This document shows, in pieces, positions 1,559-31,447 of a DNA stretch of 38,156 nucleotides. The translations under genes were made by a program, and so were the position numbers. How positions within the stretch are numbered: position 1 is the first letter of the stretch; every line of letters begins with the position of its first letter. Origin of the DNA: an uncultured Saprospiraceae bacterium (GTDB taxonomy: Bacteria > Bacteroidota > Bacteroidia > Chitinophagales > Saprospiraceae); NCBI GenBank assembly GCA_937921825.1, contig CAKZVK010000161.1:1-38156 (forward strand), in the 5' to 3' direction. The notes beneath the pieces were generated by a model. The model worked only from the letters and a program-made list of their open reading frames with translations, was not told the DNA's origin and ran no database searches.

Positions 1559-1561
1559 AAT

Positions 1562-4107: not shown

Positions 4108-4181
4108 ATGACCATGTAATCAGCCAAAAGTAGGTCAAAGTGGTGTATTTGGCTCATTAGAAAATCACTTATGCTATGAGC

Positions 4182-4700: not shown

Positions 4701-4772
4701 TTTGGGTAACTGTAATCTATAGAGAAAATTGATAATGGAGGTGAATGCAGTAGGATTGTCTAACTTATTTGT

Positions 4773-5639: not shown

Positions 5640-5692
5640 TATTATTCTATTCTTTATTTATAGTTATTGGTAGGAGTACTTGTTCGATGCTT

Positions 5693-7330: not shown

Positions 7331-7340
7331 GGGTATTTTG

Positions 7341-7550: not shown

Positions 7551-7562
7551 TTGGAGTAGCTA

Positions 7563-7660
7563 TTAACTCATAATTCATCACTTATATCTTATCACTCATA
7601 ACTTATCACTCATAACTTATCACTCATATCACATAACTAATCTACTCATATCTTATATCT
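7563..7660. repeat. Degenerate 14-bp-period minisatellite
   Basis: A second, unrelated AT-rich array next to the 17-bp one. The unit is CACTCATAACTTAT; clear copies start at 7579, 7593, 7607 and 7621 (exact 14-bp steps), with degenerate ACTCATA / CTTATATCT pieces on both sides. It lies between the end of the acyl-CoA dehydrogenase gene (7686) and the 17-bp array. No gene or clear terminator is visible here. Confidence 0.8.
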
Positions 7661-7685
7661 AACAATTTAATATCAAAAAAAATAG

Positions 7686-8852: not shown

Positions 8853-8865
8853 TGAGTATATAATT

Positions 8866-9519: not shown

Positions 9520-9533
9520 TTATCGTAGATGAC

Positions 9534-9541
9534 CAAATATA
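9534..9541 (-). promoter_or_regulatory. -7 element (TATATTTG) of the TetR-dehydrogenase operon
   Basis: On the minus strand the sequence TATATTTG exactly fits the Bacteroidota -7 consensus TAnnTTTG, 14 bp before the TTG start of the TetR gene. No convincing -33 TTG is present. The leader would be very short. Confidence 0.55.
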
Positions 9542-9551
9542 GATATAAATA

Positions 9552-9569
9552 TTAGTCACGTAAGACTAA
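9552..9569. promoter_or_regulatory. Candidate TetR operator (TTAGTC-N6-GACTAA)
   Basis: Perfect 6-bp inverted arms TTAGTC (9552-9557) and GACTAA (9564-9569) with a 6-nt spacer, placed 10 bp upstream of the TATATTTG -7 box, so a bound repressor would cover the -33/-7 spacer. Size and position fit autoregulation by the adjacent TetR protein; binding is inferred. Confidence 0.5.
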
Positions 9570-9589
9570 AATTGTGGATTTCGCCCTCT

Positions 9590-10546: not shown

Positions 10547-10734
10547 GGTTCTAGGTCTTAATTCCAAAGTAAGATGCACTTTAGGATATTAAGATAAGAA
10601 AAACTTAGAGGGAAGAAAGTCACAAGTGCAAAAGAATCCGCTACATGCAGCTTCTTCTAGAACTCGATATGGAAGCGAGCAAAGTACTTGAAATTTGTGC
10701 TCACACATCTTAGACAATAACTTAGCTCTATACC

Positions 10735-11892: not shown

Positions 11893-11910
11893 CGGTATAT
11901 ATTTTCTGCG

Positions 11911-11940
11911 CAAAACTAATAGCTGAATCTCAAATCACAA
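11911..11940 (-). promoter_or_regulatory. dapD promoter, Bacteroidota type
   Basis: Minus-strand -7 box TAGTTTTG (complement of 11911-11918) fits TAnnTTTG exactly. A -33 TTG (complement of 11938-11940) lies upstream with a 19-nt spacer, the preferred spacing. Transcription would begin near 11905, just before the ATG at 11892. Confidence 0.65.
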
Positions 11941-12102
11941 GCGCTTTGTAGTCATTATTAGTTAAGGCTGGATATAGAGCATTCTTTTTTTATATGACAA
12001 CTAGCTGACAGATATAAAAAATCCATCTATGAAGCCTCACAATCGGCTTAATCCTTGAATAATGCTATTCATACCCAGAATCTTACCCTTAATACCTTAA
12101 TT

Positions 12103-13518: not shown

Positions 13519-13539
13519 GCCATCGAGGCAGATCTTCTT

Positions 13540-15624
13540 CTAGTAAGCAAGAAGGCTGTCTAGTTTTGCTCTGACTTTTTCTGCAGAAGGAATCATTGTC
13601 TGTTCCAAAGTAGAATTTAGTGGAATGGCAGGCATATTCTCCGAACCTATAACCATAACTGGTGCATCCAAAGCTTCGAAGCATTGCTCCTGAATCATTC
13701 CTGCTAGACTTCTAGCAAAAGAATTATTAGTAGGCTCTTCCGTAACGACTAGGCACTTACCCGCTTTTCTGACTGACTCTAATATTGTGTTTTCATCTAG
13801 AGGATATAAAGTCCGAAGATCTACAATTTCGACGTGCTCTTTTAAATCTTTTGTAGCATTTAAAGCCCAGTGGACTCCCATGCCATAAGTAATAATTGTG
13901 GCCTGTGTATTTTCATTCTGAGTTTGCTGTACAACTCGTGCTTTTCCAAAAGGTAAGACATAGTCTTCAGAAGGTTCCACAGTTCTAGCCATTTCTGTAC
14001 CCGGCACTTTAGACCAGTAAAGACCTTTATGCTCTAGAATTACAACAGGGTTAGGGTCATGGTATGCCGCCTTCAGCAGTCCTTTGAGATCTGCGCCATT
14101 AGAAGGGTAGGCTATTTTGATTCCTCTTATATTAGTTAGTACTGACTCTACACTAGACGAGTGGTAGGGTCCACCACTACCATAGGCACCTATGGGAACA
14201 CGTAATATCATGCTCACTGGCCACTTTCCTTCAGAGAGGTAACAAGATCTGCTTACCTCCGTAAATAATTGATTAAGGCCAGGCCAGATATAATCGGCAA
14301 ACTGTACTTCCACTATGGGCTTGAGACCTACAGCAGACATACCTACTGTAGAGCCTACTATAAAAGCTTCTTGTATCGGGGTATTAAAGACGCGTTCGTC
14401 TCCAAACTTTTGTGCCAGTGTCGCCGCTTCTCGGAATACACCTCCTAGTCGACCACCTACATCTTGACCATAAAGCAAGCACTCTTTGTGCTCTTTCATC
14501 AGTTCCTCTACAGCCAGCAGGGCACAATCCACCATCACAACCTTGTCGGCCCCTTTTGGTGCTCTTATTCCTTTTTCTTCTGTGATAGGAGTCGGGGCAA
14601 AATCATGCGTAAACAAATCAGAAGGCAATGGGTCATCGGCTGCTCGTGCTTTCTGAAAATCATTCTCTACTTCCAGAGTGGCTTGGGCTTCTATCATAGC
14701 GATATCTGCTTCCGAAATTCCAGCTTCTATAAGTTGGTTTTTAAATACAGGGTAGGGATCTCTCGATCTTGCTTCTTCCAGATCATCTCTGTACCATTCC
14801 ATTCTTACACCAGACGTGTGATGATTAAGGAGCGGTACCTTGGCATGAATTAGAATCGGTCTACGTTCTTTACGGATGGTCTTGATCGCTTTCTGTACAG
14901 TAGTATAACTTTCTGAAAAGTCTGCACCATCGATACTGTAACAATCAATGCCGTGAAAGCCCTTGATATATCCAGCAGCATCTTGAGCTCTGGTCTCGGC
15001 AGCATTGGCAGATATGTCCCATCCGTTATCTTGTATCAGATAGAGGATCGGGAGCTGTTTCAGGGCTGCCATCTGAAAAGCTTCGGCTACTTCGCCTTCT
15101 GTCACTGAGGCATCTCCGAGTGAGCAAATCACAACTGGATTATTGCCGTCATCTATACCTAATAGTTCTTTGTATTGAAATCCCAAAGCTACACCTGTCG
15201 CAGGGATGGCTTGCATGCCTGTGGCGGAAGAATTATGTGGAATCTTTGGTCGGTTTGCATCTTTGAGACTGGGGTGACTATAGTAAGAACGACCTCCTGA
15301 GAAAGGATCGTCTTTCTTAGCCAGTAATTGCAGCATTAATTCATAAGGCTGCATGCCTAGAGAGAGTAATAATGAGTCATCTCTATAATATGGGAAGACA
15401 TAATCGTAGGACTCTAACTGTAAGCCTGCGGCGATCTGAATCGCTTCATGTCCTCTAGAAGTCGCATGTACATATTTGGAAACCAATTTGAAATTGGCTT
15501 CATAGAGTTCAGTCATTGCCTTGGCAGTACATAGCTTTAGAAAGCCTTTTTTGAGAATTTTCTTAGAAACCTTGTTTGAATTTTCAGGCTTGGACTTCGT
15601 TTTTGGTTTCTCTTTAGTATTCAT
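13540..15624 (-). CDS. Fused E1alpha-E1beta 2-oxoacid dehydrogenase, branched-chain type
   Basis: Thiamine-diphosphate decarboxylase (E1) of a 2-oxoacid dehydrogenase complex, most likely for branched-chain 2-oxoacids. 694 residues: E1alpha about 30-330, a linker, then E1beta about 360-690. The ThDP motif starts GDASVTEGE (170-178) and ends at QDNGW (Asn200); the beta half has GVFREAATLAQKFGDERVFN and EHKGLYWSK. Bacteroidota often carry this fusion. The first 25 residues are a Lys/Ser/Asn-rich tail (TKEKPKTKSKPENSNKVSKK) outside the fold. E2 and E3 are absent, so the partners are encoded elsewhere. Pyruvate or acetoin E1 is the main alternative. A TATATTTG -7 element and a palindrome lie upstream, so regulation by a TetR-type protein is plausible. 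Confidence 0.9.
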   Translation of the reverse strand: MNTKEKPKTKSKPENSNKVSKKILKKGFLKLCTAKAMTELYEANFKLVSKYVHATSRGHEAIQIAAGLQLESYDYVFPYYRDDSLLLSLGMQPYELMLQLLAKKDDPFSGGRSYYSHPSLKDANRPKIPHNSSATGMQAIPATGVALGFQYKELLGIDDGNNPVVICSLGDASVTEGEVAEAFQMAALKQLPILYLIQDNGWDISANAAETRAQDAAGYIKGFHGIDCYSIDGADFSESYTTVQKAIKTIRKERRPILIHAKVPLLNHHTSGVRMEWYRDDLEEARSRDPYPVFKNQLIEAGISEADIAMIEAQATLEVENDFQKARAADDPLPSDLFTHDFAPTPITEEKGIRAPKGADKVVMVDCALLAVEELMKEHKECLLYGQDVGGRLGGVFREAATLAQKFGDERVFNTPIQEAFIVGSTVGMSAVGLKPIVEVQFADYIWPGLNQLFTEVSRSCYLSEGKWPVSMILRVPIGAYGSGGPYHSSSVESVLTNIRGIKIAYPSNGADLKGLLKAAYHDPNPVVILEHKGLYWSKVPGTEMARTVEPSEDYVLPFGKARVVQQTQNENTQATIITYGMGVHWALNATKDLKEHVEIVDLRTLYPLDENTILESVRKAGKCLVVTEEPTNNSFARSLAGMIQEQCFEALDAPVMVIGSENMPAIPLNSTLEQTMIPSAEKVRAKLDSLLAY

Positions 15625-19790: not shown

Positions 19791-20534
19791 CTACTCCACT
19801 GTTACCGCCTGACCAATACCTGTCGCTAAGAAATCCATCGCCGCAAGCACCTCTGGTGTCAGTGAATGCAGTCTTGAGTTAGCGTCTAGATCATAGGTCT
19901 CGCCATTGTTTACGAATATATTGTTGAGATCGATGGTGATGTCAGTTTCTGTATCACTTGTAGAAGCGGAAAATGATCTCCTAGATTCGTCGGTCCCTAT
20001 ATGAAGTGCAAAGGCCTCTCCAGCACCGAAGGCCCCATCGCCATCAAAATCGTACTTGCCTTCTATTTTGAAAAAAACATAACTATTCCAGTTTCTCCAA
20101 TATTCTTCTGATATGGATAAAGGACTGCTAGAAGTAAAGTCTTCAGGGGCCATGCTATTTTGCTCCTCTGTCAGGCCTATATTGAAAGAAATCGAAGAAT
20201 ATTCCTCTGCACTGATATTTTCCTTTTTGTAATTAAAACCATCTGCAGCAGAGGCCTCAGTAAGATGAGAATCGGTGAGATCTATGTATTCTGCCTCAGA
20301 TATGAGGACGTCCATGCCTTCACTGTTTTGGACAGCGATATCAGATAAGTAGAAGCTTACGCGTTGGAGTTGGATCAGCTTACCATTAGGATACATGAAG
20401 TCTTGAAACATCACTACTGGACTGTCATCGTACTCTAGCTTAAAGTTTAAGTCTAGTACATCTTCTGGCTCTCCACATGAATGAAGAAAGAAAACTGAGA
20501 TCAATAGAGTAGAGTAGGCTAGGACTTTTTTCAT
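19791..20534 (-). CDS. MbnP-like lipoprotein
   Basis: 247 residues. The signal peptide ends in a lipobox, FFLHSCGEP, with Cys20 lipidated, so the protein is membrane-anchored outside the cytoplasm. The pattern LQRVSFYLSDIAVQNSEG, a Y-I-D-L stretch, ISFNIGLTEEQNSM and FFKIEGKYDFDGDGAFG ... FALHIG matches what I know of MbnP-family proteins, which were named from methanobactin/copper contexts and are common in Bacteroidota. No MbnH-type dihaem peroxidase lies next to it. It converges on the M48 gene with a 22-bp gap. Metal binding is not evident from sequence. Confidence 0.72.
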   Translation of the reverse strand: MKKVLAYSTLLISVFFLHSCGEPEDVLDLNFKLEYDDSPVVMFQDFMYPNGKLIQLQRVSFYLSDIAVQNSEGMDVLISEAEYIDLTDSHLTEASAADGFNYKKENISAEEYSSISFNIGLTEEQNSMAPEDFTSSSPLSISEEYWRNWNSYVFFKIEGKYDFDGDGAFGAGEAFALHIGTDESRRSFSASTSDTETDITIDLNNIFVNNGETYDLDANSRLHSLTPEVLAAMDFLATGIGQAVTVE

Positions 20535-20634: not shown

Positions 20635-21099
20635 TTAAAGTATTTGAATTGCAGTGGTAGATTTTCTTTCTGATAAAGAGAAGCGCGATTCTACTTTCCC
20701 AATATTCGGAATAACAGAGAGCTTATCCAGAATGAATTGATTGTAGGCTTCTATGTCCTTCAGCAGAATCTTCAGTAGGAAATCAGCATCTCCACTTACA
20801 TGATGACATTCTAGCACTTCAGGGTACTTAGTCACTGCCGCTACAAAGCCATTCAGGGCATCTTTGCCATGCTTGCTTATGGAGATCAGAACAAAAACAG
20901 TCAGATTGCTGCCTATCTTCTTGGCATCTAACAGAGAGACGTGTTTTTTGATGACGCCATTTTTCTCAAGCTTTTTCATTCTGTCAAAAATTGGTGTCGT
21001 TGAAAGATGGAGCTGATCCGCCATTTCTTTTATAGTCAGCTTTGCATTCTCTTGCAGGAGTCTAAGGATGGCTTTGTCTGTTTTGTCTAGTGAGACCAT
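20635..21099 (-). CDS. Lrp/AsnC-family transcriptional regulator
   Basis: 154 residues, the standard length. An N-terminal helix-turn-helix covers about 4-60 (LDKTDKAILRLLQENAKLTI, then HLSTTPIFDRMKKLEKNGVI). The C-terminal RAM/AsnC ligand domain includes YPEVLECHHVSGDADFLLKI. It is divergent from phenylalanine hydroxylase across 163 bp, so it probably controls the phhA run in response to an amino acid, likely an aromatic one; this is inferred from position. A TTGTACAA palindrome (21118-21125) lies just ahead of its start. Confidence 0.9.
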   Translation of the reverse strand: MVSLDKTDKAILRLLQENAKLTIKEMADQLHLSTTPIFDRMKKLEKNGVIKKHVSLLDAKKIGSNLTVFVLISISKHGKDALNGFVAAVTKYPEVLECHHVSGDADFLLKILLKDIEAYNQFILDKLSVIPNIGKVESRFSLSERKSTTAIQIL

Positions 21100-21262: not shown

Positions 21263-22054
21263 ATGAGCAGAATAACAGAACTAAACATAGATGAAATCAA
21301 GGATAGCGAATTACTAAAAGGCTTTGATTTTGACAAATACGACGATGGAGATAGAGAAAGATGGAAGGCCCTCCTTGATGGTGTATTAGAAGCTCAGGAA
21401 GGTATTTCTTGTGATTCTTATACAAGAGGTATGGCTGCTTTAGGAGAGAACTTTGCAGAGCTGCCCAATCTAGAAGAGCTCAATTATAAATTGGAGCAAC
21501 AGACAGGATGGAGGGTAATGGCCGTCAATGGACTACTGCCTTGTGAAGACTTCTATAAGTTGCTTTCTAAAAAGATATTCCCTTCTGCCACCTTTGTGAG
21601 GGATTGGCATTCAACAGCCTTTACTGGCTATCCAGATATCTTTCATGACGTAGTCGGTCATCTCCCGTTGTTTTTCGATAAGAAATTCTCTGATTTTGTG
21701 TCCAAGTCATCAGCAATCATCTATGCCGTTCTTAGAAAAACACCTGATGGTGCAGAAAAGGAAAAGATGATCCAAAACTTTAGCCGATATGGATGGTTTA
21801 CTTGGGAGGCGGGATTAATTTTAGAGCAGGGGACAGCCAAGGCTTACGGAGGTGCGATACTCTCTTCCTCTGGCGAAACTCAAAATCTAAAGGAAAGAGG
21901 CTATGACAAATTCGACCTTCTAGAGGTCTTTAATCAAGAGTACACAGATAAAGAGTTTAGTTGTAGGTACTTTATGATAGATTCCTATGATGATCTTTTT
22001 GCTAGCTTAGAGCAGATAAAAAACCAATACGGTATAGAAGGAATAATTAACTAA
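21263..22054 (+). CDS. phhA: Phenylalanine 4-monooxygenase
   Basis: Iron- and tetrahydropterin-dependent hydroxylation of L-phenylalanine to L-tyrosine. 263 residues, the usual bacterial single-domain length. The 2-His-1-Glu iron site is intact: PDIFHDVVGHLPLFF gives His128 and His133, and WFTWEAGLI gives Glu182. The pterin carbinolamine dehydratase gene begins 2 bp downstream, a classic phhA-phhB pairing, and an Lrp/AsnC regulator is divergent upstream. No 4-hydroxyphenylpyruvate or homogentisate dioxygenase is in the window, so the route beyond tyrosine is not the textbook cluster here. Confidence 0.95.
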   Translation: MSRITELNIDEIKDSELLKGFDFDKYDDGDRERWKALLDGVLEAQEGISCDSYTRGMAALGENFAELPNLEELNYKLEQQTGWRVMAVNGLLPCEDFYKLLSKKIFPSATFVRDWHSTAFTGYPDIFHDVVGHLPLFFDKKFSDFVSKSSAIIYAVLRKTPDGAEKEKMIQNFSRYGWFTWEAGLILEQGTAKAYGGAILSSSGETQNLKERGYDKFDLLEVFNQEYTDKEFSCRYFMIDSYDDLFASLEQIKNQYGIEGIIN

Positions 22055-22056
22055 TT

Positions 22057-22293
22057 ATGTGGGAAGAAAGAGATAATGCTTTACATGCTACTTTTGAGTT
22101 TAAGGACTTTATAGAAGCTTTTGGATTTATGACAGCGGTAGCCATGCTCGCAGAGAAGCAAAATCATCATCCCGAATGGTCCAATGTCTGGAATAAAGTG
22201 TCTATCAAGTTGACGACTCATGACGCTGGTAATACAGTAACTGAGAAGGATAGAAAACTAGCTGATGCTATTACTGAATTAATCTCAAGTTAG
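22057..22293 (+). CDS. phhB: Pterin-4a-carbinolamine dehydratase
   Basis: Recycles the 4a-hydroxytetrahydropterin made by PhhA to quinonoid dihydropterin. The active-site block EKQNHHPEWSNVWNKVSIKL followed by TTHDAG (His37, His38, Trp41, His55-Asp56) is complete. The 78 residues make it shorter than most homologues (about 95-115): the usual N-terminal extension is missing, but the conserved alpha/beta core is present. It lies 2 bp behind phhA and 8 bp ahead of the DoxX-like gene, so cotranscription is near certain. Confidence 0.94.
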   Translation: MWEERDNALHATFEFKDFIEAFGFMTAVAMLAEKQNHHPEWSNVWNKVSIKLTTHDAGNTVTEKDRKLADAITELISS

Positions 22294-22301
22294 ATATAGG
22301 A

Positions 22302-22703
22302 ATGATAGAAAACTACAACGCATTTATTTTCATAGCTATAGGTGTCTTTTGGACCTTGCTTTTTCTTCAGTCTGGCTTGGACAAAGTTTTTGATTGGAAC
22401 GGCAATGTATCATGGCTCAAAGGACACTTTGAAAAATCTATCCTTGGCGGCTTTGTGACACCTATGGTAGGCACACTGGCTTTAGTAGAAATTGTAGCAG
22501 GTCTTGTATGTGCCGCGGGAACCATTCAGGTGTTTCTGTCTGGAAATACTTATTGGTTACTCCAAGGTGTATTCTTATCGATAGTATCTTTATTGATGTT
22601 GTTTTTTGGGCAGCGTCTGGCTAAGGATTATGAAGGGGCAAAGACGATAGCCATCTACTTCGGAGTCGCATTAGTAAGTTGTGGGCTATTGCTACAAGCT
22701 TAG
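22302..22703 (+). CDS. DoxX-like four-helix membrane protein
   Basis: 133 residues with four hydrophobic helices (about 8-26, 50-72, 83-104 and 113-131). The first-loop text LLFLQSGLDKVFDWNGNVSW follows the DoxX/DoxD pattern (helix 1 ending in a G-x-D-K type motif). DoxX proteins are membrane partners of various oxidoreductases with no single known reaction. The gene sits 8 bp behind phhB, so it may support the pterin or hydroxylase redox cycle, or simply be co-expressed; nothing in the sequence decides this. Confidence 0.7.
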   Translation: MIENYNAFIFIAIGVFWTLLFLQSGLDKVFDWNGNVSWLKGHFEKSILGGFVTPMVGTLALVEIVAGLVCAAGTIQVFLSGNTYWLLQGVFLSIVSLLMLFFGQRLAKDYEGAKTIAIYFGVALVSCGLLLQA

Positions 22704-22755
22704 CATACTTAAGGCCAAGTCTGCTTTTATTTTAATTAATCAACCAAATTTTTAA

Positions 22756-23868
22756 ATGGGTAAATCTCAGATCAATATATTCAAAGAATCATTATTACCG
22801 AAAGGAGGCTATAAAGGTGGCAAGAGCAAAGCGGAAGTGGCGGCTCTAGTAGGCAAGAAAAAAGTCTACAAGCTATCTTCTAATGAGAACTATCTAGGGG
22901 CTTCCCCAAAGGCCAAGAAAGCGATTAAGTCCGCAGTCAATGATCTAAACATATACCCAGAGCGCACAGCAGTCAGGCTGCGTCATGCTTTATCTAAATT
23001 TTACGGCGGCATACTAAAGCCCGATCAGTTTGTAACGGATAATAGTGGGGTGGCTTTACTAGAAATGATAGAAAGAGCCTTCCTAAGCCCTGGAAATGAG
23101 ATCATCGTTTGTAATCCAGCTTTCAAGCCCTACCATATGTTCGCCAAGAAACTAGGCGCCAGTGTGGTAGATGTACCACTGAAAGGGAAGTACTACAAAC
23201 TAGATATTCCCAATATCCTAAAGGCCGTAAACAAGAAAACCAGACTCCTCTTTCTATGTAGTCCCAACAATCCTACTGGCACACATATATCTATGGAACA
23301 GTTAGATGAGTTGTTGCCTCAGTTGCCCGCTCATGTAGTCACTGTTTTTGATGAAGTGTATTATCAGTATGCAGATGCTGAAGACTTTACTACGGCGTTA
23401 CCCTATGTAGATGCAGGTATGAATGTGATTGCGGTCAATAGTTTTTCTAAAGCCTATGGTCTGGCAGGTATGAGAGTAGGTTATGGCTATACTACAGAGA
23501 AGCTCGCTAAATACATTTCGCAATTGATCAGACCATTTCATCTCAATACTTTGGCAATGGATTCTGCGATAGCAGCATTACAAGACAAAGCCTATATCAA
23601 AAAGACTGTAGATCTCGTACTGACAGAAAAAGAATATATCTATAAAGCGCTAGATAAGCTAGGAGTAAAGTATTGGAAAACCCAAGCCAACTTCATTACG
23701 ATCAAGCCCAAGATGAAAGACAAGCTCTTCGAAGAAGCAATGCTAAAAAGTGGTGTCATGGTCAGACCTGTAGTAAACTTCGGCGCACCGGGTTGTATTA
23801 GAGTGACTATCGGAGATAGAGAAGCGAATCAAGCTTATCTTAGAGCATTGAAAAAAGTCTTGAAATAG
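22756..23868 (+). CDS. HisC-type (class I/II) PLP aminotransferase, probably aromatic
   Basis: 370 residues, fold type I PLP aminotransferase of the histidinol-phosphate/aromatic group. Seen: SSNENYLGASPKAKKAI (41-57), SPNNPTGTH (169-177), the PLP-pairing DEVYYQY (199-205) and the Schiff-base lysine in NSFSKAYGLAGMRVGYGY (Lys232). No other histidine-biosynthesis gene is near and phhA is just upstream, so transamination of tyrosine/phenylalanine is more likely than histidinol-phosphate; this is inference. The N-terminus (MGKSQINIFKESLLPKGGYK) is extended relative to E. coli HisC. It starts 52 bp after the DoxX-like gene without a visible terminator in between. Confidence 0.85.
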   Translation: MGKSQINIFKESLLPKGGYKGGKSKAEVAALVGKKKVYKLSSNENYLGASPKAKKAIKSAVNDLNIYPERTAVRLRHALSKFYGGILKPDQFVTDNSGVALLEMIERAFLSPGNEIIVCNPAFKPYHMFAKKLGASVVDVPLKGKYYKLDIPNILKAVNKKTRLLFLCSPNNPTGTHISMEQLDELLPQLPAHVVTVFDEVYYQYADAEDFTTALPYVDAGMNVIAVNSFSKAYGLAGMRVGYGYTTEKLAKYISQLIRPFHLNTLAMDSAIAALQDKAYIKKTVDLVLTEKEYIYKALDKLGVKYWKTQANFITIKPKMKDKLFEEAMLKSGVMVRPVVNFGAPGCIRVTIGDREANQAYLRALKKVLK

Positions 23869-23902
23869 GCATACCTATTTAATATAAACTAAGCAGAAGA
23901 TA

Positions 23903-25528
23903 TTGGAAAAGTTAACAGGAGGGCAGGCTGCAGTTAGAACCTTAATCAAAGCAGGCATAAAACAACTCTACGGTCTCCCTGGAGTCCAGAATGATTGGTT
24001 GTATAATGCGCTATATGATTATCGTGATGAAATTAAAGTCATTCATACCAGACATGAGCAAGGGGCAGGATATATGGCCCTCGGTCATTATCTAGCTACT
24101 GGAGAAACGGCTGTATATAATATAGTGCCTGGCCCCGGCTTTTTGAATAGCTGTGGTGCCTTAAGTACTATCTGGGGCTTAAATGCTAAGGTCCTTTGTC
24201 TCGTAGGGCAGATTCCTCAGAAAGTCCAAGGAAAGAAGTTAGGAGTGCTCCATGAGATACCAGATCAGATGGGTATCATGCGCCGACTGACTAAGTGGGC
24301 AGATAATGTTACGGCACCCAGTAAAGCGCCAGAAGTCATTCAAGAAGCTTTTCGCCAGCTATATACAGGTAGACCTAGACCGGTAGGGGTGGAGATTCCT
24401 ATGGACGTGTTGTCGGGATCAGAGGAAGTCTCGTTTGAGAATCTTTCTTTTGTACAGCCTTCTAGTGAAGTATTTGAAGACGAAATATCAAAAGCACTAG
24501 CACTTATAAAAGAGGCTAAGAATCCACTTGTCTTTGTTGCAGGTGGAGCTATGCATGCATCAGCAGAAGTGATAGAACTGGTAGAACATATTCAGGCGCC
24601 TGTCTTTGCCTATCGTACTGGAAAGGGAATAGTACCTAGTTCTCATTATCTCAGCTATCCAGTACCCGCAGCACATAAGTTATGGGCGGACTGCGACCTC
24701 TGTATCACTATAGGATCTCATGCTCGTATGCCATTGATGAAGTGGGGGCAAGATGATAAATTGAAATTATTAAGTATCAATATAGATAAAGATGTCCATG
24801 ATCGCATGCGTAAAGCTGAAGCTTCTGTCACTGCGGATTCTAAGGCCGCATTAGTCGCCTTGAATGCACAGCTGAAAGCTACGATGAAACCTAGGCCAAG
24901 TAAAGAAGAAGCCATGAAAAGCTTTGCAGCAGACTGGGAAGAGCAGACCGCTTACCTAGAGCCACAAAAGTCTTATCTCAATCTTATAAGAGAAGAACTG
25001 CCAGAAGATGGCATCCTAGTAGATGAGCTAACGCAGGTGGGCTTTGCCAGTAGAATCGTATGGAATACAGATCAGCCTAGAACTTATTTATGTACTGGTC
25101 ATATGGGTACGTTAGGTTGGGGATTCCAGACAGCTCTCGGAGCTAAGGCTGCTAGACCCGAGGCAATGGTTGTGTCACTTGCTGGAGATGGAGGCTTTAT
25201 GTTTGGAGTGCAAGAGCTTGCGACAGCTGTACAGCATAAGCTCGGTGTTATTGTCTTGTTATTCAATAATAACCTATACGGTAATGTGCGGAGTATGCAA
25301 GAGCAGTTGTACGATAATCGAGTGATTGCAACAGACCTCCATAATCCAGATTTTGTAAAGATGGCTGAAGCTTTTGGAGCTCATGCTGAAAGGGCACATT
25401 CTATGGATGAACTACGGACAGCGATTCGTTCTGCTAAGGGTAGAGAGTTGCCGACCGTCATAGAGATACCTGTAGATAATGACTGGCCGAGTACGAATAA
25501 ATTCAAAGCCTTACCTAAAGTGCGATAG
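23903..25528 (+). CDS. Thiamine-diphosphate enzyme of the acetolactate synthase/benzoylformate decarboxylase superfamily, substrate unknown
   Basis: 541 residues, three-domain ThDP enzyme. The cofactor-activating glutamate is in HEQGAGYMAL (Glu52); the central domain covers about 190-330; the ThDP/Mg motif begins GDGGFMFG (428-435) and ends at FNNNLYGN. The start is TTG at 23903 since the N-terminal PYR domain begins immediately (MEKLTGGQAAVRTLIKAGIK) and no earlier in-frame ATG is present. I cannot assign it to acetolactate synthase, oxalyl-CoA decarboxylase or sulfoacetaldehyde acetyltransferase. Directly following an aminotransferase (34-bp gap), it may decarboxylate or ligate the resulting 2-oxoacid, for example an arylpyruvate; this is a hypothesis. 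Confidence 0.85.
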   Translation: MEKLTGGQAAVRTLIKAGIKQLYGLPGVQNDWLYNALYDYRDEIKVIHTRHEQGAGYMALGHYLATGETAVYNIVPGPGFLNSCGALSTIWGLNAKVLCLVGQIPQKVQGKKLGVLHEIPDQMGIMRRLTKWADNVTAPSKAPEVIQEAFRQLYTGRPRPVGVEIPMDVLSGSEEVSFENLSFVQPSSEVFEDEISKALALIKEAKNPLVFVAGGAMHASAEVIELVEHIQAPVFAYRTGKGIVPSSHYLSYPVPAAHKLWADCDLCITIGSHARMPLMKWGQDDKLKLLSINIDKDVHDRMRKAEASVTADSKAALVALNAQLKATMKPRPSKEEAMKSFAADWEEQTAYLEPQKSYLNLIREELPEDGILVDELTQVGFASRIVWNTDQPRTYLCTGHMGTLGWGFQTALGAKAARPEAMVVSLAGDGGFMFGVQELATAVQHKLGVIVLLFNNNLYGNVRSMQEQLYDNRVIATDLHNPDFVKMAEAFGAHAERAHSMDELRTAIRSAKGRELPTVIEIPVDNDWPSTNKFKALPKVR

Positions 25529-25561
25529 ACCTCACTCCAGCAGCTAGACTAAATAGAAAGA

Positions 25562-26158
25562 ATGAAAATAGGTGTCATATCAGATATACATGAGAACTTC
25601 CACAACCTCGTTTTGGCTTTACAAAAAATGGAGGCAGAAGGAGTAGAACAGATACTTTGTCTGGGAGATCTGATGAATGCAGGGATTGCAAAGATTCTTG
25701 CTGCGCATTCTGTACCCACCTTTTTGATCTGGGGGAATAATGATGGAGAGAAAGTCGATATCGTCAAAGCCTCATTTAGAGAAAATAGTCAGCTAACCGT
25801 AAGTCTTAATACCTATGACTTTTTGAAGATCGGTGGCAAGAAGATATTCATCAGCCACTACGATGACCTTGCTATACCTATGGCAGAATCTGGTCGCTAT
25901 GATGCCGTCTTTTATGGACATAATCACAAAAAGAAAAATGAGATTATCGGCTCTTGTCATGTTGTGAATCCCGGAGAAATATCCGCACAGAAATCTGGAG
26001 TGGCATCATTAGCTATTTATGATACGGAGACAAATGAAGTCGCTATTCATGACCTTGAGAATATTGTTTCTCTCAAATCTGATTTTATAGATAAGTGGTT
26101 TCGGGAGAATATGGAAAGACTAGATTTCAGATCCAAGGACTCTTTTAATAATCTGTAG
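25562..26158 (+). CDS. Calcineurin-like metallophosphoesterase, YfcE/MJ0936 type
   Basis: 198 residues. All binuclear-metal motifs are visible: GVISDIHEN (4-12), CLGDL (33-37), WGNND (57-61), ISHYDD (about 97-102, where a T-H-G type motif is usual) and GHNHKK (119-124). The size is slightly above the 160-180 typical of YfcE-type enzymes because of a C-terminal helical tail. It probably hydrolyses a phosphodiester or phosphomonoester in the cytoplasm; substrate unknown. It begins 33 bp after the ThDP gene and ends 3 bp before the P-loop gene, so it is most likely a functional partner of that ATPase. Confidence 0.85.
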   Translation: MKIGVISDIHENFHNLVLALQKMEAEGVEQILCLGDLMNAGIAKILAAHSVPTFLIWGNNDGEKVDIVKASFRENSQLTVSLNTYDFLKIGGKKIFISHYDDLAIPMAESGRYDAVFYGHNHKKKNEIIGSCHVVNPGEISAQKSGVASLAIYDTETNEVAIHDLENIVSLKSDFIDKWFRENMERLDFRSKDSFNNL

Positions 26159-26161
26159 ACT

Positions 26162-27022
26162 ATGGATATCCTTCATAATATTATTCCTGAGAGCAGTGCC
26201 GTTTTTAAGCAGCTAGAGGTACTGGCAGCTTCTACCCAGATAGTTGTTTTTTCTGGCTTACCTGGAGTAGGTAAGAGTTTATACATACGTGAGTTCCAAT
26301 TGATCGCTAAGAGTCAAGAAAAAGTGGTAGATGTTATCCAATGGGATGTAGCCAGAAAAGCTTTCGAGACAGAGTATATACAAAGCCATTTCCCCATGGG
26401 AAAGGGCACAGTTCATAATGGCCTAAAGCTTATCGCAGGCAGCTGGCTGATGGATGAAATTGATTTATGGTTAGAGCAGCATAGAGACACAGATAGGATA
26501 CTGCTTATAGAGGCCCCTCTGGTAGGGCACCGATTCATAGAACTGGTGAAGAAGGATGTGCATCCAGACTTGGAAGCTGTACTAGCCTCTCCTGCTACTA
26601 AAATTATAATGCCGATCCCTACTGCAGAAGTTAGAAGCAAAATAGAGGCAGAAAGAATCAGGCAAGTAGATGAGAATGCTAAAGTTTGGTCTGGAGCCAA
26701 GCCCTCTGTCATGCTGATGCTATGGAAAATGACCTGCGGCATCGCCAATGAATTCGGGAAAGATATAGACATGTCAGGTCAGCCTCCCTATAGTGCTAAG
26801 GTCTATGAGTATGTCTTTAGTAATATATTGAAGCATAGAAACTTTGTGCCCTTGATAATAGATGAGGTCTACGAGGTTCCTACAGAAGATGAAAGTACCT
26901 TACATAAGGCAGATTCTATACAAGCCGATGAAGAAACAGCGAATCATTATGGTAAAATGATTGTTGAGCATTATACAGAAGAGCAGATAGACAACATTGT
27001 ATCACAATGGTATCTTTCGTAG
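26162..27022 (+). CDS. P-loop NTPase of unknown function, kinase-like
   Basis: 286 residues. Walker A GLPGVGKS at 32-39, followed by VDVIQWDVARKAFE (about 56-69), an Asp/Arg pair in the position where small-molecule and polynucleotide kinases bind the acceptor. A hydrophobic strand ending LLIEAPLVGHRF (Walker B region) and a basic helix AEVRSKIEAERIRQ that could be the phosphoryl-transfer lid follow. I do not recognise the family. It starts 3 bp after the phosphoesterase gene, so the two are translationally coupled. The C-terminal third is acidic and helical (EDESTLHKADSIQADEETAN). Confidence 0.7.
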   Translation: MDILHNIIPESSAVFKQLEVLAASTQIVVFSGLPGVGKSLYIREFQLIAKSQEKVVDVIQWDVARKAFETEYIQSHFPMGKGTVHNGLKLIAGSWLMDEIDLWLEQHRDTDRILLIEAPLVGHRFIELVKKDVHPDLEAVLASPATKIIMPIPTAEVRSKIEAERIRQVDENAKVWSGAKPSVMLMLWKMTCGIANEFGKDIDMSGQPPYSAKVYEYVFSNILKHRNFVPLIIDEVYEVPTEDESTLHKADSIQADEETANHYGKMIVEHYTEEQIDNIVSQWYLS

Positions 27023-27064
27023 ATTTTATTATTCTGTGTATTAATTAAGTAATCCCTTTGTAAT

Positions 27065-28507
27065 ATGAATAAGTCACTATTGACTCTCCTCTTTTTGGTT
27101 CTGATAGTAATAGACCTATCAGCCCAATTTTCAGAACAAGAATCGAAGGTCGTATCAGAATTAGATTTCAAATCAGAGCACTATTTTAAGATAGCTAAGG
27201 ATATTTGGACCTATGCAGAGGTAGGCTATCAAGAAGAAAAAAGTACTGCAGCTTTGCAGAATTTATTGAAGAAGGAAGGATTTACTATAGAAGCTGGCGT
27301 AGCAGAAATTCCTACAGCTTTTATTGCTTCCTATGGTGAAGGCTCTCCAGTTATCGGCATCCTAGGAGAGTATGATGCCTTACCGGGTATTACGCAGACC
27401 ACTTCCCCTGAGAGAGAAAAGAGAACAGATGTAGGAGCAGGTCATGCTTGTGGTCATCACCTCTTCGGTACAGGATCAGCAGCGGCATCTATTGCGATCA
27501 AGAATTGGATGCAAGAAAACAAAGTGAAAGGGACACTACGATTCTATGGTACCCCAGCAGAAGAAGGTGGTGCAGGCAAAGTGTATCTGGTAAGAGCAGG
27601 ACTTATGGATGACGCTGATGCAATCTTGCATTGGCATCCCTCTAATGCCAACAGTGCCGATGCGGCTTCCTCCCTCGCTAACAAATCTGCTAAGTTCAGA
27701 TTCTATGGCTTGTCTGCACATGCAGCAGCTTCTCCTTGGAATGGTCGATCAGCCTTAGATGGTGTGGAGGCTATGAATATGATGGTCAATATGCTCAGAG
27801 AACATATGACCATGGAGTCCCGTACGCATTATGTCATAACAGAGGGCGGTGCTGCACCTAATGTCATTCCTGACTTTGCAGAGGTCTTTTATTATGTGCG
27901 ACATCCTGATATGCAGATTGCTGCAGATAATTTTGAAAGAGTTGTAAAATGTGCGGAAGGTGCTGCCCTAGGTACGAATACAAAAATGGAATATGAAATC
28001 ATTCATGGTATCTATAACGTATTGCCGAATGTGACTTTAAGTGAAGTGATGCATGATAACCTGCTGAAGGTGGGTGGTGTGACTTATGATGCGGAAGAGG
28101 AAGCTTTTGCTGAGAAAATTGTTAGCTCTTTTGAGTATGCAGATAATGTTAGTCTCGATATAGCAAAAAACGTCAGACCCTTCCAGGTAATTCGTAAAGG
28201 CAATAGAGGCTCTACAGATGTCGGAGATGTCAGTTGGGCCGTGCCGACTGCTGGAGTACGAACGGCGACTTGGGTACCAGGTACTTCGGCACATAGCTGG
28301 CAGGCCATCGCGGCAGGAGGTACGACTATAGGTCAGAAAGGAATGATGGTCGCCGCCAAAACCCTTTCTCTTACAGCTATGCAATTATATAATGATACAG
28401 CCCTACTCAAAAAAGCAAAAGAAGAACTGGTGCAACAAAGAGGGAAGGACTTTATCTATAAACCTCTATTAGGAGATAGAAAACCTCCGCTCGACTACAG
28501 AAAATAA
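27065..28507 (+). CDS. Exported AbgB-like M20 metallopeptidase/amidohydrolase
   Basis: 480 residues. An N-terminal signal peptide MNKSLLTLLFLVLIVIDLSA, probably cleaved before QFSEQ, places the enzyme outside the cytoplasm, unlike typical AbgB. The M20 zinc motifs are present: GEYDALPG, GHACGHHLFGTG (His127-His132 region) and FYGTPAEEGGAGK. The order and size resemble AbgB (aminobenzoyl-glutamate hydrolase B subunit) and other N-acyl-amino-acid amidohydrolases. It likely cleaves an amide-linked amino acid in the periplasm to feed the catabolic genes around it; the substrate is unknown. The aldehyde dehydrogenase gene begins 3 bp downstream. Confidence 0.85.
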   Translation: MNKSLLTLLFLVLIVIDLSAQFSEQESKVVSELDFKSEHYFKIAKDIWTYAEVGYQEEKSTAALQNLLKKEGFTIEAGVAEIPTAFIASYGEGSPVIGILGEYDALPGITQTTSPEREKRTDVGAGHACGHHLFGTGSAAASIAIKNWMQENKVKGTLRFYGTPAEEGGAGKVYLVRAGLMDDADAILHWHPSNANSADAASSLANKSAKFRFYGLSAHAAASPWNGRSALDGVEAMNMMVNMLREHMTMESRTHYVITEGGAAPNVIPDFAEVFYYVRHPDMQIAADNFERVVKCAEGAALGTNTKMEYEIIHGIYNVLPNVTLSEVMHDNLLKVGGVTYDAEEEAFAEKIVSSFEYADNVSLDIAKNVRPFQVIRKGNRGSTDVGDVSWAVPTAGVRTATWVPGTSAHSWQAIAAGGTTIGQKGMMVAAKTLSLTAMQLYNDTALLKKAKEELVQQRGKDFIYKPLLGDRKPPLDYRK

Positions 28508-28510
28508 ACT

Positions 28511-29971
28511 ATGGAACTTAAGAATAAAAATTTACTGCAGACCGAAGCTTATATCAACGGGCAATTTACAGCCTCAGCTAGTGGGTCTAAATTTGAAGTA
28601 ATGAACCCCTATGACGGAACTGTTGTAGCAGAGGTCTCAGATTGTGCAATAGCAGACACGGAGCAAGCTATCCAAGCGGCCTCAGAAGCTTTTCAAGTAT
28701 GGAAAAAATTTACAGCAGGTAAGCGAGCTAGAATACTCAAGCGCTGGTATCAATTGCAACTCGAGAATGTAGATGATCTAGCTCAGATACTGACTATAGA
28801 ACAAGGCAAGCCTCTAGCAGAAGCTAAAGGAGAAATCAAGTATGGTGCTTCTTTCGTAGAATGGTTTGCAGAGGAAGCAAGAAGGATATATGGAGATACT
28901 ATCCCCGGCCATCAAGGAGATAAGCGGATAGTCACTATCAAGCAACCCGTAGGGGTCGTCGCGGCGATTACCCCTTGGAATTTCCCAAGTGCCATGATTA
29001 CTCGGAAGGTCGCACCCGCTCTGGCAGCTGGCTGTACGGTGGTAATAAAGCCATCGGAGCTGACGCCTCTATCTGCATTGGCACTTGCTGAACTAGCAAA
29101 TCAGGCCGGCTTTCCTCCAGGTGTCATTAATATCGTTACCACTACAGATGCTAAAGCAGTAGGAGAAGTAATGACCTCAAGTCCTCTGGTCCGTAAATTA
29201 TCTTTCACTGGTTCTACTCGTGTAGGTAAGATACTACTCAAGCAATGTGCGGACTCTGTAAAAAAAGTATCCCTAGAGCTCGGAGGGAATGCGCCATTTA
29301 TAGTCTTTGATGATGCTGATTTGGATATCGCAGTACAAGGTGCCATAGCGGCTAAGTATCGTAATGCTGGTCAGACCTGTGTCTGTGCCAATCGACTTTT
29401 TGTACAGTCTGGCGTATATGATGAGTTCATCACCAAGTTTACAGCCGCAGTCAAGGAGCAACAACTTGGGAATGGAATAGCAGCAGGTACTGTAATAGGT
29501 CCAATGATAGAAGAGAAGGCAGTGCAGTTTGTAGAATCTGTTGTCAGTGATGCTATAGCGAAAGGCGGAGAGGTCCTTACAGGTGGACAGAGAAACGGGG
29601 ATAAAAGTAGTCTGATGTATGAGCCTACCGTCTTGGCCAATGTCACTACCGATATGTCTGTGTATAGCAGTGAGATCTTTGGGCCAGTAGCACCAGTTTT
29701 CAAATTTGAGACGGAAGAAGAAGTAATCAAGCTGGCCAATGATACCCCCTATGGCTTAGCATCCTACTTTTACGGTAGAGACTATGCTAAGATATGGAGA
29801 GTGGCTGAGGCCTTAGAATATGGGATGGTCGGTATCAATACAGGTATGATATCTACGACTGTTGCTCCTTTTGGGGGCATCAAAGAAAGTGGCTTCGGTA
29901 GAGAAGGCTCTAAGTATGGGATGGATGATTACTTGGAGATTAAATATATGTGCTGGGGCGGAATAGAGTAA
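28511..29971 (+). CDS. NAD(P)+ aldehyde dehydrogenase, succinate-semialdehyde type
   Basis: 486 residues, full length. The catalytic Cys290 is in NAGQTCVCANRLF, the general-base glutamate in SLELGGNAPF (about 256), and the cofactor motifs ITPWNFPSAM and VVIKPSELTPLS are intact. The C-terminal GMISTTVAPFGGIKESGFGR and EGSKYGMDDYLEIKYMC is the succinate-semialdehyde dehydrogenase (GabD) pattern, so succinate semialdehyde or a near homologue such as glutarate semialdehyde is the best guess. Context (behind an aminotransferase and ThDP enzyme, ahead of a 4-oxalocrotonate-decarboxylase-like gene) leaves another carboxy-aldehyde possible. 3-bp gap to the M20 gene. Confidence 0.9.
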   Translation: MELKNKNLLQTEAYINGQFTASASGSKFEVMNPYDGTVVAEVSDCAIADTEQAIQAASEAFQVWKKFTAGKRARILKRWYQLQLENVDDLAQILTIEQGKPLAEAKGEIKYGASFVEWFAEEARRIYGDTIPGHQGDKRIVTIKQPVGVVAAITPWNFPSAMITRKVAPALAAGCTVVIKPSELTPLSALALAELANQAGFPPGVINIVTTTDAKAVGEVMTSSPLVRKLSFTGSTRVGKILLKQCADSVKKVSLELGGNAPFIVFDDADLDIAVQGAIAAKYRNAGQTCVCANRLFVQSGVYDEFITKFTAAVKEQQLGNGIAAGTVIGPMIEEKAVQFVESVVSDAIAKGGEVLTGGQRNGDKSSLMYEPTVLANVTTDMSVYSSEIFGPVAPVFKFETEEEVIKLANDTPYGLASYFYGRDYAKIWRVAEALEYGMVGINTGMISTTVAPFGGIKESGFGREGSKYGMDDYLEIKYMCWGGIE

Positions 29972-29985
29972 GTCAGCTATTTAGC

Positions 29986-30014
29986 TTGTTCTTTGGGACA
30001 TTAATCTATCTTTG
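29986..30014 (+). promoter_or_regulatory. Internal promoter ahead of the 4-oxalocrotonate-decarboxylase-like gene
   Basis: -33 TTG at 29986-29988, an 18-nt spacer, and -7 TATCTTTG at 30007-30014 (exact TAnnTTTG). Transcription from about 30021 would lead straight into the ATG at 30048, so the decarboxylase and the following barrel can be expressed apart from the upstream genes. Confidence 0.6.
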
Positions 30015-30047
30015 CGCCACTAATTTTTTTAATTGCAAATCATTCCT

Positions 30048-30809
30048 ATGAATTTTGAAGAGCTAGCGGAACGCTTAGATACTGCAGCTGTAAAGGCTAC
30101 TGCTACCCCCCAAATAAGTCATTCTACACCGATTACTCTGAGTGAGGCCTACAAGATTCAGGAGCAATCTATACAAAGACGTAAGGATAGGGGACAACAG
30201 CTCGTGGGAGTCAAGATGGGCTTTACCAGTAAGGCTAAGATGGAGCAGATGGGAGTACATGATCTTATCTGGGGCAGACTGACTGATGACATGGCCTATG
30301 CAGCAGGTGCAGAGCTTCCTAGAGATAAGTTTATTCATCCTCGGGCAGAACCTGAGATTGCCTTCTTGCTAGCTAAGGATATCACCGAAGAAGTCACCCT
30401 AGACAATGCACTGAGTTTTGTATCCAAAGTAGCCGTCGCTATAGAGATTATAGATTCAAGATATGAGAACTTTAAATTCTCACTCGAAGATGTGGTAGCG
30501 GACAACTGTTCTTCTGCAGGCTTTACCATAGGAGAGTGGAAAGAAGTAGATACTAAAATAATAGACATCTTAATGTCGTTAGTATGTGACGATGTTATAG
30601 TAGGGAAGGGCAATTCCAATGCAATAATGGGTAACCCATGGGAATCTTTTGTTGCAGCAGCTAGAATATCAAAAGCCAATAACGAGCCTCTAAAAGCAGG
30701 ACATATTGTTCTGGCTGGTGCTGCCACTTCCGCTTCATATATTAAGGTCGGTGAGACAGTATCAGCGCATGCTGAGGGTCTCGGATCCGTTCACCTTGAT
30801 ATAGTCTAA
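30048..30809 (+). CDS. 4-oxalocrotonate decarboxylase-like (2-oxo-3-hexenedioate decarboxylase / 2-oxopentenoate hydratase family)
   Basis: 253 residues from the ATG at 30048; a TTG at 30033 is rejected. Text closely follows the meta-cleavage enzyme 4-oxalocrotonate decarboxylase (DmpH/XylI, NbaG): GVKMGFTSKAKMEQMGV (54-70), HPRAEPEIAF with metal-binding Glu101 and Glu103, IEIIDSRYENFKFSLEDVVA (132-151, Glu133) and a terminal GLGSVHLDIV. These enzymes decarboxylate 2-oxo-3-hexenedioate to 2-oxopent-4-enoate in catechol or 2-aminomuconate degradation. No ring-cleavage dioxygenase, hydratase or aldolase partner is in the window, so the pathway is undetermined. It has its own promoter and the next gene begins 2 bp after its stop. 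Confidence 0.85.
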   Translation: MNFEELAERLDTAAVKATATPQISHSTPITLSEAYKIQEQSIQRRKDRGQQLVGVKMGFTSKAKMEQMGVHDLIWGRLTDDMAYAAGAELPRDKFIHPRAEPEIAFLLAKDITEEVTLDNALSFVSKVAVAIEIIDSRYENFKFSLEDVVADNCSSAGFTIGEWKEVDTKIIDILMSLVCDDVIVGKGNSNAIMGNPWESFVAAARISKANNEPLKAGHIVLAGAATSASYIKVGETVSAHAEGLGSVHLDIV

Positions 30810-30811: not shown

Positions 30812-31447
30812 ATGAAACACTTAAGCTTCCTAATTGTAATCTTTGCATTCTTATTCTCCATTCCAGCTATCGGACAGTCTGATAATAGCAAGACAATGGA
30901 CAAAGAGAAATTTAGTATTGGAATAGGTATGGGGATAGATTATAGCCTTTTAGGGCTAAGATTTTCTTATTATACAGGTAAGCGGTTTGGCATAATTGGA
31001 GGAGTCTCTCCTATTGCTTTGATAGATTTAGAACCCACACTGACTTTTGCAAAAATTGGGGTGGAGTATAAATTCAAAGAATTTAAAAATGTCTTTCCTT
31101 ATTTAAATCTTCAATTTGGAATCAATAGGTCGCAACGGCTAGAACCATTTTCTTCAGTAGAAAGTGTGCCTACTGAAGAGTGGCATGAAGAGGTTGACTA
31201 TGTTCCTTTCTATGGACCAGTGCTAGGGACAGGAATAAAAATTCCATTCTTTAAGCACTTAAGATCTTATTGTACCCTGGGACTCAGCGTTGCTTATGAA
31301 AGTCATCTAGGAGGAATACCAGAAATCTATGCAGATTATAATGAGAAATTTAAGACCTCATACGCCGTTCCGGCCAAGAACTTTAAGTGGTTTCCAACAG
31401 TAGCCTTGACCTATATTTTTTCTGAGCATTCTGATAAGGCAAAATAG
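30812..31447 (+). CDS. Small outer-membrane beta-barrel protein, function unknown
   Basis: 211 residues with a signal peptide MKHLSFLIVIFAFLFSIPAI, cleaved near GQS. Alternating hydrophobic/polar strands (FSIGIGMGIDYSLLGLRFSY, FAKIGVEYKF, FPYLNLQFGINR, YCTLGLSVAYES, FPTVALTYIF) and an aromatic near the C-terminus fit an 8-strand-type porin-like barrel. I do not recognise a specific family. It begins 2 bp after the decarboxylase-like gene, so it is cotranscribed and could provide outer-membrane passage for a substrate of that pathway, which is a guess. Confidence 0.75.
   Translation: MKHLSFLIVIFAFLFSIPAIGQSDNSKTMDKEKFSIGIGMGIDYSLLGLRFSYYTGKRFGIIGGVSPIALIDLEPTLTFAKIGVEYKFKEFKNVFPYLNLQFGINRSQRLEPFSSVESVPTEEWHEEVDYVPFYGPVLGTGIKIPFFKHLRSYCTLGLSVAYESHLGGIPEIYADYNEKFKTSYAVPAKNFKWFPTVALTYIFSEHSDKAK

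Follow-up and report, generated by a model that had tools for sequence, protein, structure and literature searches.

Where does the tyrosine formed by a bacterial phenylalanine hydroxylase go when the genes that follow phhA are not those of homogentisate breakdown? The question is raised by a run of genes at positions 21263–30809 of a stretch of 38156 nucleotides from an uncultured Saprospiraceae bacterium (contig CAKZVK010000161.1 of assembly GCA_937921825.1); we call the whole stretch the window. A preliminary description had proposed that phenylalanine passes by way of tyrosine to an arylpyruvate, which a thiamine diphosphate (ThDP) enzyme decarboxylates to an arylacetaldehyde for oxidation, or else that two unrelated operons lie together. 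Our analysis suggests that the run is probably the upper part of an aerobic phenylalanine and tyrosine pathway that ends in the meta-cleavage of homoprotocatechuate (3,4-dihydroxyphenylacetate), with a proposed order in which 3,4-dihydroxyphenylalanine (L-DOPA) is formed first. An aromatic amino acid hydroxylase (AAAH) would convert phenylalanine to tyrosine and then tyrosine to L-DOPA, a HisC-type aminotransferase (AT) would turn L-DOPA into 3,4-dihydroxyphenylpyruvate, the ThDP enzyme would yield the arylacetaldehyde and an aldehyde dehydrogenase (ALDH) would oxidize this to homoprotocatechuate. From there, Hpa enzymes whose genes lie in other parts of the genome would lead to pyruvate and succinate semialdehyde, and the ALDH of the run would convert the latter to succinate. 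That the upper part of a tyrosine pathway leads here into the cleavage of homoprotocatechuate is well supported by linkage, and the DOPA-first order seems more probable than not; the substrates of all enzymes of the route, above all that of the DOPA step, we infer from sequence.

The genome of the window (G000; 4.0 Mb in 172 contigs, 96.5% complete) was compared with its congeners in a collection of named genomes, mostly Saprospiraceae metagenome-assembled genomes (MAGs), giving a genus sample of 14 genomes with G000 included. A scan of the named genomes gave 457 relatives, of which the best 80 were kept as ThDP loci, many of them incomplete; counts over these 80 loci were made with custom profiles and custom cutoffs. 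Family calls use Pfam E values and NCBIfam bit scores set against the cutoff of the model. Genomes, loci and contigs carry numbers prefixed G, L and C, respectively.

Linkage to homoprotocatechuate cleavage

At the centre of the proposed route are two genes on the forward strand, which carries every gene of the run. The first (22756–23868) encodes a HisC-family AT (hisC, 290.6 against a cutoff of 276.55) that we propose to be a tyrosine/DOPA transaminase, and the second (23903–25528) encodes a ThDP enzyme of the PRK08266 type, a candidate arylpyruvate decarboxylase, which scores 667.8 against the cutoff of 571 for NF006122. This model is named 'hypothetical protein', whereas a role is proposed here; if the proposal is true, it suggests a function for the unnamed family PRK08266. 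Glu52 and the GDG..NN motif are invariant among ten genus sequences.

One link to ring cleavage comes from a congener, G002, in which the ThDP orthologue (66% identity) lies outside the run on contig C11, in the order hpaF-like, hpaD, ThDP, ALDH and hpaE, with hpaH and an hpaI-like gene following on the opposite strand. HpaD (389.6, cutoff 321.4), HpaE (767.7, cutoff 638.35) and HpaH (376.3, cutoff 351.5) all exceed their cutoffs, while HpaI (313.3, cutoff 368.8), the HpaF-like protein (40.4, cutoff 215) and the StyD-type ALDH (632.9, cutoff 850) fall below theirs. The window genome itself carries HpaD (373.2), HpaE (755.4) and HpaH (382) over the same cutoffs on contig C154, together with a protein whose best family is HpaI (332.7, below 368.8); the contig ends directly after hpaD. 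Genes for HpaF-like and HpaG-like proteins lie downstream of hpaD in four congeners (G005, G007, G009 and G011); the HpaG-like protein of G005 scores 175.3 against 276.4, and HpaG is over the cutoff in G008. HpaD of the VOC type was found in ten of the 14 genus genomes, that of the window among them; one of the ten sequences is a fragment of 55 residues cut off by the end of its contig.

The association recurs well outside the genus. Five Aquimarina strains and a Bacteroidia MAG have the order HpaH-HpaI-HpaG-HpaE-HpaD-HpaF-StyD-type ALDH-ThDP-metallophosphoesterase (PPase)-AT-P-loop protein, and a Rhodothermaceae MAG has a ThDP homologue inside a near-complete hpa operon. In two of the five Aquimarina strains (L191 and L192; 7193–8086) the HpaD slot is taken by a LigB-type HpaD instead of the VOC type (L191, 468.4 against 315.95; the L192 protein is 99% identical), and by sequence the slot is thus filled by two unrelated enzymes of one predicted activity. 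Over the 80 ThDP loci we counted the P-loop protein in 60, an AT homologue in 41 and HpaD in 16 (14 VOC, two LigB). The ThDP, AT and P-loop genes stand beside hpa genes in loci of Saprospiraceae, Aquimarina, Rhodothermaceae, Anaerolineae and Trueperaceae. Near the end of the run, a succinate-semialdehyde-type dehydrogenase (28511–29971; TIGR01780, 709.7 against 646.35) fits the reaction that closes the hpa pathway; orthologues with 75–79% identity occur in seven of the 11 congeners that carry the P-loop gene.

Compared with the known hpa meta-cleavage operon, HpaD, HpaE and HpaH over the NCBIfam cutoffs are shared; the present system differs in having HpaF-like and HpaI proteins below the cutoffs, in lacking any HpaB-family match in the genus and in the addition of the AT, the ThDP enzyme, a phosphatase and the P-loop protein. 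The hpa linkage supports the arylpyruvate reading of the preliminary description and gives it an end point, and the accompanying remark that no known named pathway has this gene set is incomplete, homoprotocatechuate cleavage being a named end pathway.

Conservation of the run also extends beyond phhA, phhB and the small 'DoxX-like' gene that follows them. Ten of the 14 genus genomes have phhA of the window type, and in seven of these (G000, G001, G002, G003, G006, G011 and G012) the phhA-phhB-(DoxX-like) genes are joined to the AT gene; they lie apart from it in two (G005 and G013), and in G009 a contig end interrupts the region. G004 and G008 have AT-ThDP-PPase-P-loop but not this phhA. As the genes are joined in some congeners and apart in others, we distinguish two modules, often joined, and the run is a mosaic.

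This separability is the part of the unrelated-operons idea that stands, and it would suit an explanation in which the ThDP enzyme serves another amino acid, such as arginine, or acetolactate synthesis. The second NCBIfam match of the enzyme is 5-guanidino-2-oxopentanoate decarboxylase, albeit below the cutoff (346 against 500), and two genes of the run, those for a 4-oxalocrotonate-decarboxylase-like (4OD) enzyme and an M20 amidohydrolase, look foreign. We nevertheless consider it improbable that the operons are unrelated: the ThDP, AT and P-loop genes are found next to hpa genes in all five groups named above, and the window genome has a more distant ThDP protein (31% identity) on contig C61 that is presumably its acetolactate synthase. 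The other ThDP matches among those listed for 296 sampled genomes of the phylum, the window's included, are 28–34% identical and were taken to be acetolactate synthases and similar enzymes. The hpa linkage likewise counts against an arginine transaminase-type or indole-pyruvate route, either of which the sequences by themselves would allow.

Several observations weigh against the proposed pathway. VOC-type HpaD was not found in four of the 14 genus genomes (G003, G010, G012 and G013), one of which has a LigB-type HpaD. No HpaD lies nearby in 64 of the 80 ThDP loci, many of which are incomplete, a count that also favours unrelated operons, and proteobacterial loci have AT-ThDP-P-loop-ALDH without hpa genes, except for an HpaD match in L213; the ThDP family may therefore serve other 2-oxo acids as well. 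In the window genome HpaF, HpaG and a StyD-type ALDH were not located, C154 ending after hpaD and no genome-wide search aimed at these three having been made. HpaF-like and StyD-type proteins fall under the NCBIfam cutoffs wherever tested, and so does HpaI.

Proposed hydroxylation of tyrosine

HpaD needs a catechol, yet no 4-hydroxyphenylpyruvate dioxygenase (HPD) over the cutoff was found in the 14 genus genomes, that of the window included (homogentisate 1,2-dioxygenase itself was not searched), and the HpaB family (PF03241) has no match in any of the 14. For HPD, the absence of homogentisate genes noted in the preliminary description is thus borne out.

The first gene of the run, phhA (21263–22054), encodes a divergent biopterin-dependent AAAH (Biopterin_H, 3.9e-33) and is followed by phhB, for pterin-4a-carbinolamine dehydratase (22057–22293; Pterin_4a, 1.9e-27). 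The hydroxylase falls below both PhhA cutoffs (187.4 against 247 for NF008877 and 155.1 against 264.75 for TIGR01267) and far below that of Tyr_3_monoox (101 against 654.65 for TIGR01269, a model 457 positions long). Its H..GH and E, presumably the iron ligands, align with those of solved phenylalanine hydroxylases. At the site that corresponds to D425 of tyrosine hydroxylase and V379 of phenylalanine hydroxylase, which we placed in the alignment by strings of the two enzymes that we take to be correct, an Asp is found in 12 of 12 sequences of the window phhA group and in none of the 30 other biopterin hydroxylases (43 distinct sequences were compared, one of them gapped at the site). The Aquimarina enzymes have Ile here. 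In the available text of PMC2653193 this site is implicated in specificity, as D425 of the rat tyrosine hydroxylase and V379 of the rat phenylalanine hydroxylase; there, a Toxoplasma enzyme that had lost its N-terminal domain lost its preference for tyrosine but still used both substrates. By that precedent an enzyme with no more than the Asp may simply use both substrates.

The neighbours of Asp-type hydroxylases point the same way as the Asp. In G353 the hydroxylase gene is followed after 5 bp by hpaE (768.2 against 638.35) and then by hpaD; a second contig starts with the rest of hpaD and continues AT-ThDP-PPase-ALDH-DoxX-like, and the two contigs have 141 identical end bases in common. A second Asp-type hydroxylase gene of G013 has the gene for a LigB-type HpaD (473.2 against 315.95) 38 bp downstream. 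These arrangements bear on the idea that the hpa genes and the module act on 4-hydroxyphenylacetate, dopamine or DOPA taken up from outside, with phhA left to tyrosine biosynthesis. Such a division would agree with the placement of hpaD and phhA on different contigs in the window genome, but we think it unlikely, as the Asp-type AAAH directly adjoins ring-cleavage genes in G353 and G013 and as the breakdown of arylacetates or amines would call for neither an aminotransferase nor a 2-oxo-acid decarboxylase.

A second candidate for the hydroxylation appears where phhA is missing. In G004, G008 and the genome of L177 a 364-residue protein without a Pfam family is encoded between the ThDP and PPase genes; none of these genomes has a match to the window phhA, and that of L177 has none to Biopterin_H either. 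The sole match in a single-sequence search was a heme tyrosine hydroxylase (E 1.4). A profile of six rows found SfmD (6vdp, 4.7e-12), TyrH (7kqr, 2.3e-6) and LmbB2 (8r2s, 1.3e-4), the next match being Smc at 0.64, and the RW-x3-H motif, noted for LmbB2 in the available text of PMC3851162, is present in all six rows. The first matches of the predicted fold are TyrH, IDO1 and SfmD (E 0.03–0.1; a poor model, mean pLDDT 54.5). Genes of this kind lie in the module in six of the 80 loci, of which three are of Saprospiraceae type (including one with the label Chitinophagia), two come from Anaerolineae and one from Rhodothermaceae. In the Rhodothermaceae and Anaerolineae loci the N-terminal part forms a C-terminal extension of a P-loop protein (L186 1470–3380, L193 2712–4792 and L194 12361–14290) and the C-terminal part is a separate gene downstream. 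An iterated version of the profile was discarded: because of these fusions it drew in the P-loop family, and the six-row alignment was used instead. Within the genus ten genomes have the biopterin type, two the heme type (G004 and G008), none both and two neither (G007 and G010, 78% and 89% complete); as evidence that the types exclude each other this tally is weak. The proteins of G004, G008 and L177 share the profile match and the motif with the heme tyrosine hydroxylases LmbB2, TyrH and SfmD of the HDAO superfamily. They differ in setting: the one described for TyrH and SfmD is natural-product biosynthesis (PMC11791213, as excerpted), while here the gene sits in a catabolic module. If the assignment is true, heme tyrosine hydroxylases enter primary catabolism.

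Three observations, namely the Asp site, the neighbours in G353 and G013 and the heme TyrH-like gene in the module, therefore argue for hydroxylation of tyrosine itself. To the points already named against the pathway must be added that the specificity argument is one residue, that the window hydroxylase has no such N-terminal domain and that the AAAH might only supply tyrosine. Moreover, no catechol-forming enzyme was identified in Aquimarina, nor in most of the Saprospiraceae represented by L178–L185.

If the AAAH does only make tyrosine, 4-hydroxyphenylpyruvate would pass through 4-hydroxyphenylacetaldehyde and 4-hydroxyphenylacetate to homoprotocatechuate by means of an unrecognised monooxygenase. 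We regard this as possible but less probable. Tyrosine breakdown through 4-hydroxyphenylacetate and homoprotocatechuate is already known from gram-positive bacteria (Sparnins and Chapman, 1976, as cited in the accessible parts of PMC2991359 and PMC3534580), and phhB beside phhA would suit a phenylalanine hydroxylase too. The Aquimarina operons show no hydroxylase gene, and a true HpaB occurs in an Anaerolineae genome that carries the module. Set against this are the lack of HpaB-family matches in the genus, the heme TyrH-like genes of the module and the Asp at the tyrosine hydroxylase site.

The true HpaB is L291 of G368 (672.3 against 480.2), the only PF03241 match over the HpaB cutoff, in a genome that carries the heme protein besides. 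In a set of 20 genomes PF03241 has 11 matches, spread over nine of the genomes; nine of the 11 matches are vinylacetyl-CoA isomerase-like: L288 matches 6vjr at 2.5e-232 and reaches 144.4 bits against the HpaB cutoff of 480.2, and eight others are 60–78% identical to it. A first reading of PF03241 matches as HpaB hydroxylation in six Saprospiraceae genomes was ruled out for this isomerase likeness. A further match, L292 from the genome of L181, resembles HpaB-2 but stays under the cutoff (533 against 885.2). The matches L282–L290, which resemble vinylacetyl-CoA isomerase/4-hydroxybutyryl-CoA dehydratase, are a trap for pathway annotation.

The DOPA-first route can now be set beside known ones. 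With the gram-positive route it shares the passage from tyrosine through homoprotocatechuate to succinate and pyruvate; that route goes through 4-hydroxyphenylacetate and a 3-monooxygenase, whereas here an AT-ThDP module is present, the genus yields no HpaB-family match and DOPA is proposed to be formed first. In the text of PMC2991359 available, the genes of Arthrobacter arilaitensis for the 4-hydroxyphenylpyruvate step and for 4-hydroxyphenylacetate 3-monooxygenase were not located. With the phh/homogentisate pathway it shares the biopterin hydroxylase, phhB and a divergent regulator, but no HPD exceeds the cutoff in the 14 genus genomes and the hydroxylase lies under the PhhA cutoffs and has the Asp of the tyrosine hydroxylase type. 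In a literature search that had most subscription journals outside its scope, we found no description of bacterial tyrosine breakdown that starts with DOPA or relies on a ThDP enzyme. If true, the proposal would assign genes to the upper steps of a tyrosine pathway known biochemically for decades, as well as natural bacterial enzymes for making DOPA and for decarboxylating arylpyruvates; annotations as 'phenylalanine hydroxylase' in such Bacteroidota may be wrong.

A kinase-like protein and its phosphatase partner

Two genes of the module have no assigned place in the chemistry set out above. A YfcE-type metallophosphoesterase, the PPase (25562–26158; 72.9 against 56.25), is followed by its partner, a P-loop protein (26162–27022) of an unnamed family with a kinase-like fold and no Pfam or NCBIfam match over a cutoff. 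The P-loop protein was found in 12 of the 14 genus genomes and, searching with the window's protein, in none of 46 other relatives; in other groups, homologues with an identity of about 30% were seen solely next to relatives of the ThDP enzyme. In an alignment of 26 sequences GLPGVGKS is nearly invariant. The structure model (pLDDT 89.1) has nucleotide kinases and other P-loop proteins as its best fold matches, none with E ≤ 0.001 in the fold search, so that the likeness to nucleotide kinases is weak.

The phosphatase is of three kinds in the 34 of the 80 loci where one was seen (metallophosphoesterase in 24, a HAD hydrolase in seven and an HD protein in three), and two kinds never occur together in one locus. 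PPase and P-loop protein form a single open reading frame in seven loci (L178, L179, L180, L181, L184, L185 and L197). We read the two, by sequence, as a recurrent accessory kinase/phosphatase pair, which marks an unnamed kinase-like family within an aromatic operon. A wider proposal, to which we give an even chance, is a DOPA-first catabolism with interchangeable parts: a hydroxylase of the biopterin or of the unrelated heme TyrH type, HpaD of either of two unrelated types, and the kinase-like P-loop protein combined with a metallophosphoesterase, a HAD or an HD phosphatase, three enzymes that are likewise unrelated. In L198 a ThDP open reading frame of 746 amino acids also matches the P-loop profile.

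Probable passenger genes and surroundings

All genes of the run named in the preliminary description are open at the coordinates given here. The gaps from phhA through the 4OD gene are 2–61 bp, which makes a single transcription unit plausible. Promoter-like sites (26, against 24.4 in shuffles, s.d. 3.8) and terminator-like sites (nine, against 7.5, s.d. 2.7) are not in excess, and the promoter and terminator scan is uninformative.

The M20 amidohydrolase (27065–28507; TIGR01891, 240.1 against 153.75), which has a signal-like N-terminus, is a probable passenger: no congener stretch compared gave a match to its gene, which thus occurs in the window alone among the stretches examined, and it was dropped from the route for this reason. 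The 4OD gene (30033–30809; dmpH, TIGR03218, 187.8 against 350.55) was also removed from the route, since its homologue adjoins tryptophan 2,3-dioxygenase genes in three congeners; going by neighbourhood alone, it most likely belongs to tryptophan catabolism (kynurenine, 2-aminomuconate). In G003 it is followed by tryptophan 2,3-dioxygenase and an ALDH and, by reading, by genes for an ACMSD-type amidohydrolase, kynureninase, kynurenine monooxygenase, formamidase and a Rid protein; in G013 (60% identity) and G012 (48%) it lies upstream of a regulator and tryptophan 2,3-dioxygenase. It remains within the run in G001, G002 and G011. Contig C154 of the window genome has a kynurenine cluster, with 3-hydroxyanthranilate dioxygenase, kynureninase, 4-hydroxy-2-oxovalerate aldolase and acetaldehyde dehydrogenase over their cutoffs, 2-keto-4-pentenoate hydratase slightly below (327.9 against 350) and a Trp_dioxygenase match in Pfam (3.6e-101); the monooxygenase, formamidase and ACMSD labels come from gene order and reading only. 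No separate decarboxylase was seen in this cluster, and the window 4OD gene, although it scores below the DmpH cutoff, may therefore supply that step. A small open reading frame without a Pfam family follows it (30812–31447), and a gene similar by eye lies inside the kynurenine cluster of L054 (11273–11575); the former is perhaps a trace of such a cluster.

The small protein encoded after phhB (22302–22703) keeps 'DoxX-like' as a label only. It has no Pfam family: DoxX is not recognised and the sole match (0.067) is to a different family. Its gene follows phhB in nine congener loci and the ALDH gene in G353. Divergent from phhA, on the reverse strand, is a gene for an Lrp/AsnC-type regulator (20635–21099; AsnC_trans_reg, 1.2e-21), with an orthologue in the same position in nine congener loci (L044, L046–L052 and L061). 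Further upstream (2–15624), open reading frames were read, by eye and outside any family search, as more amino-acid catabolism: hutU/hutH-like, HMG-CoA-lyase-like, carboxylase beta-like and acyl-CoA-dehydrogenase-like genes and a 2-oxoacid dehydrogenase fusion. An MbnP-like gene (19791–20534) is retained close to the run in many congener loci, including loci without phhA (L058 and L059).

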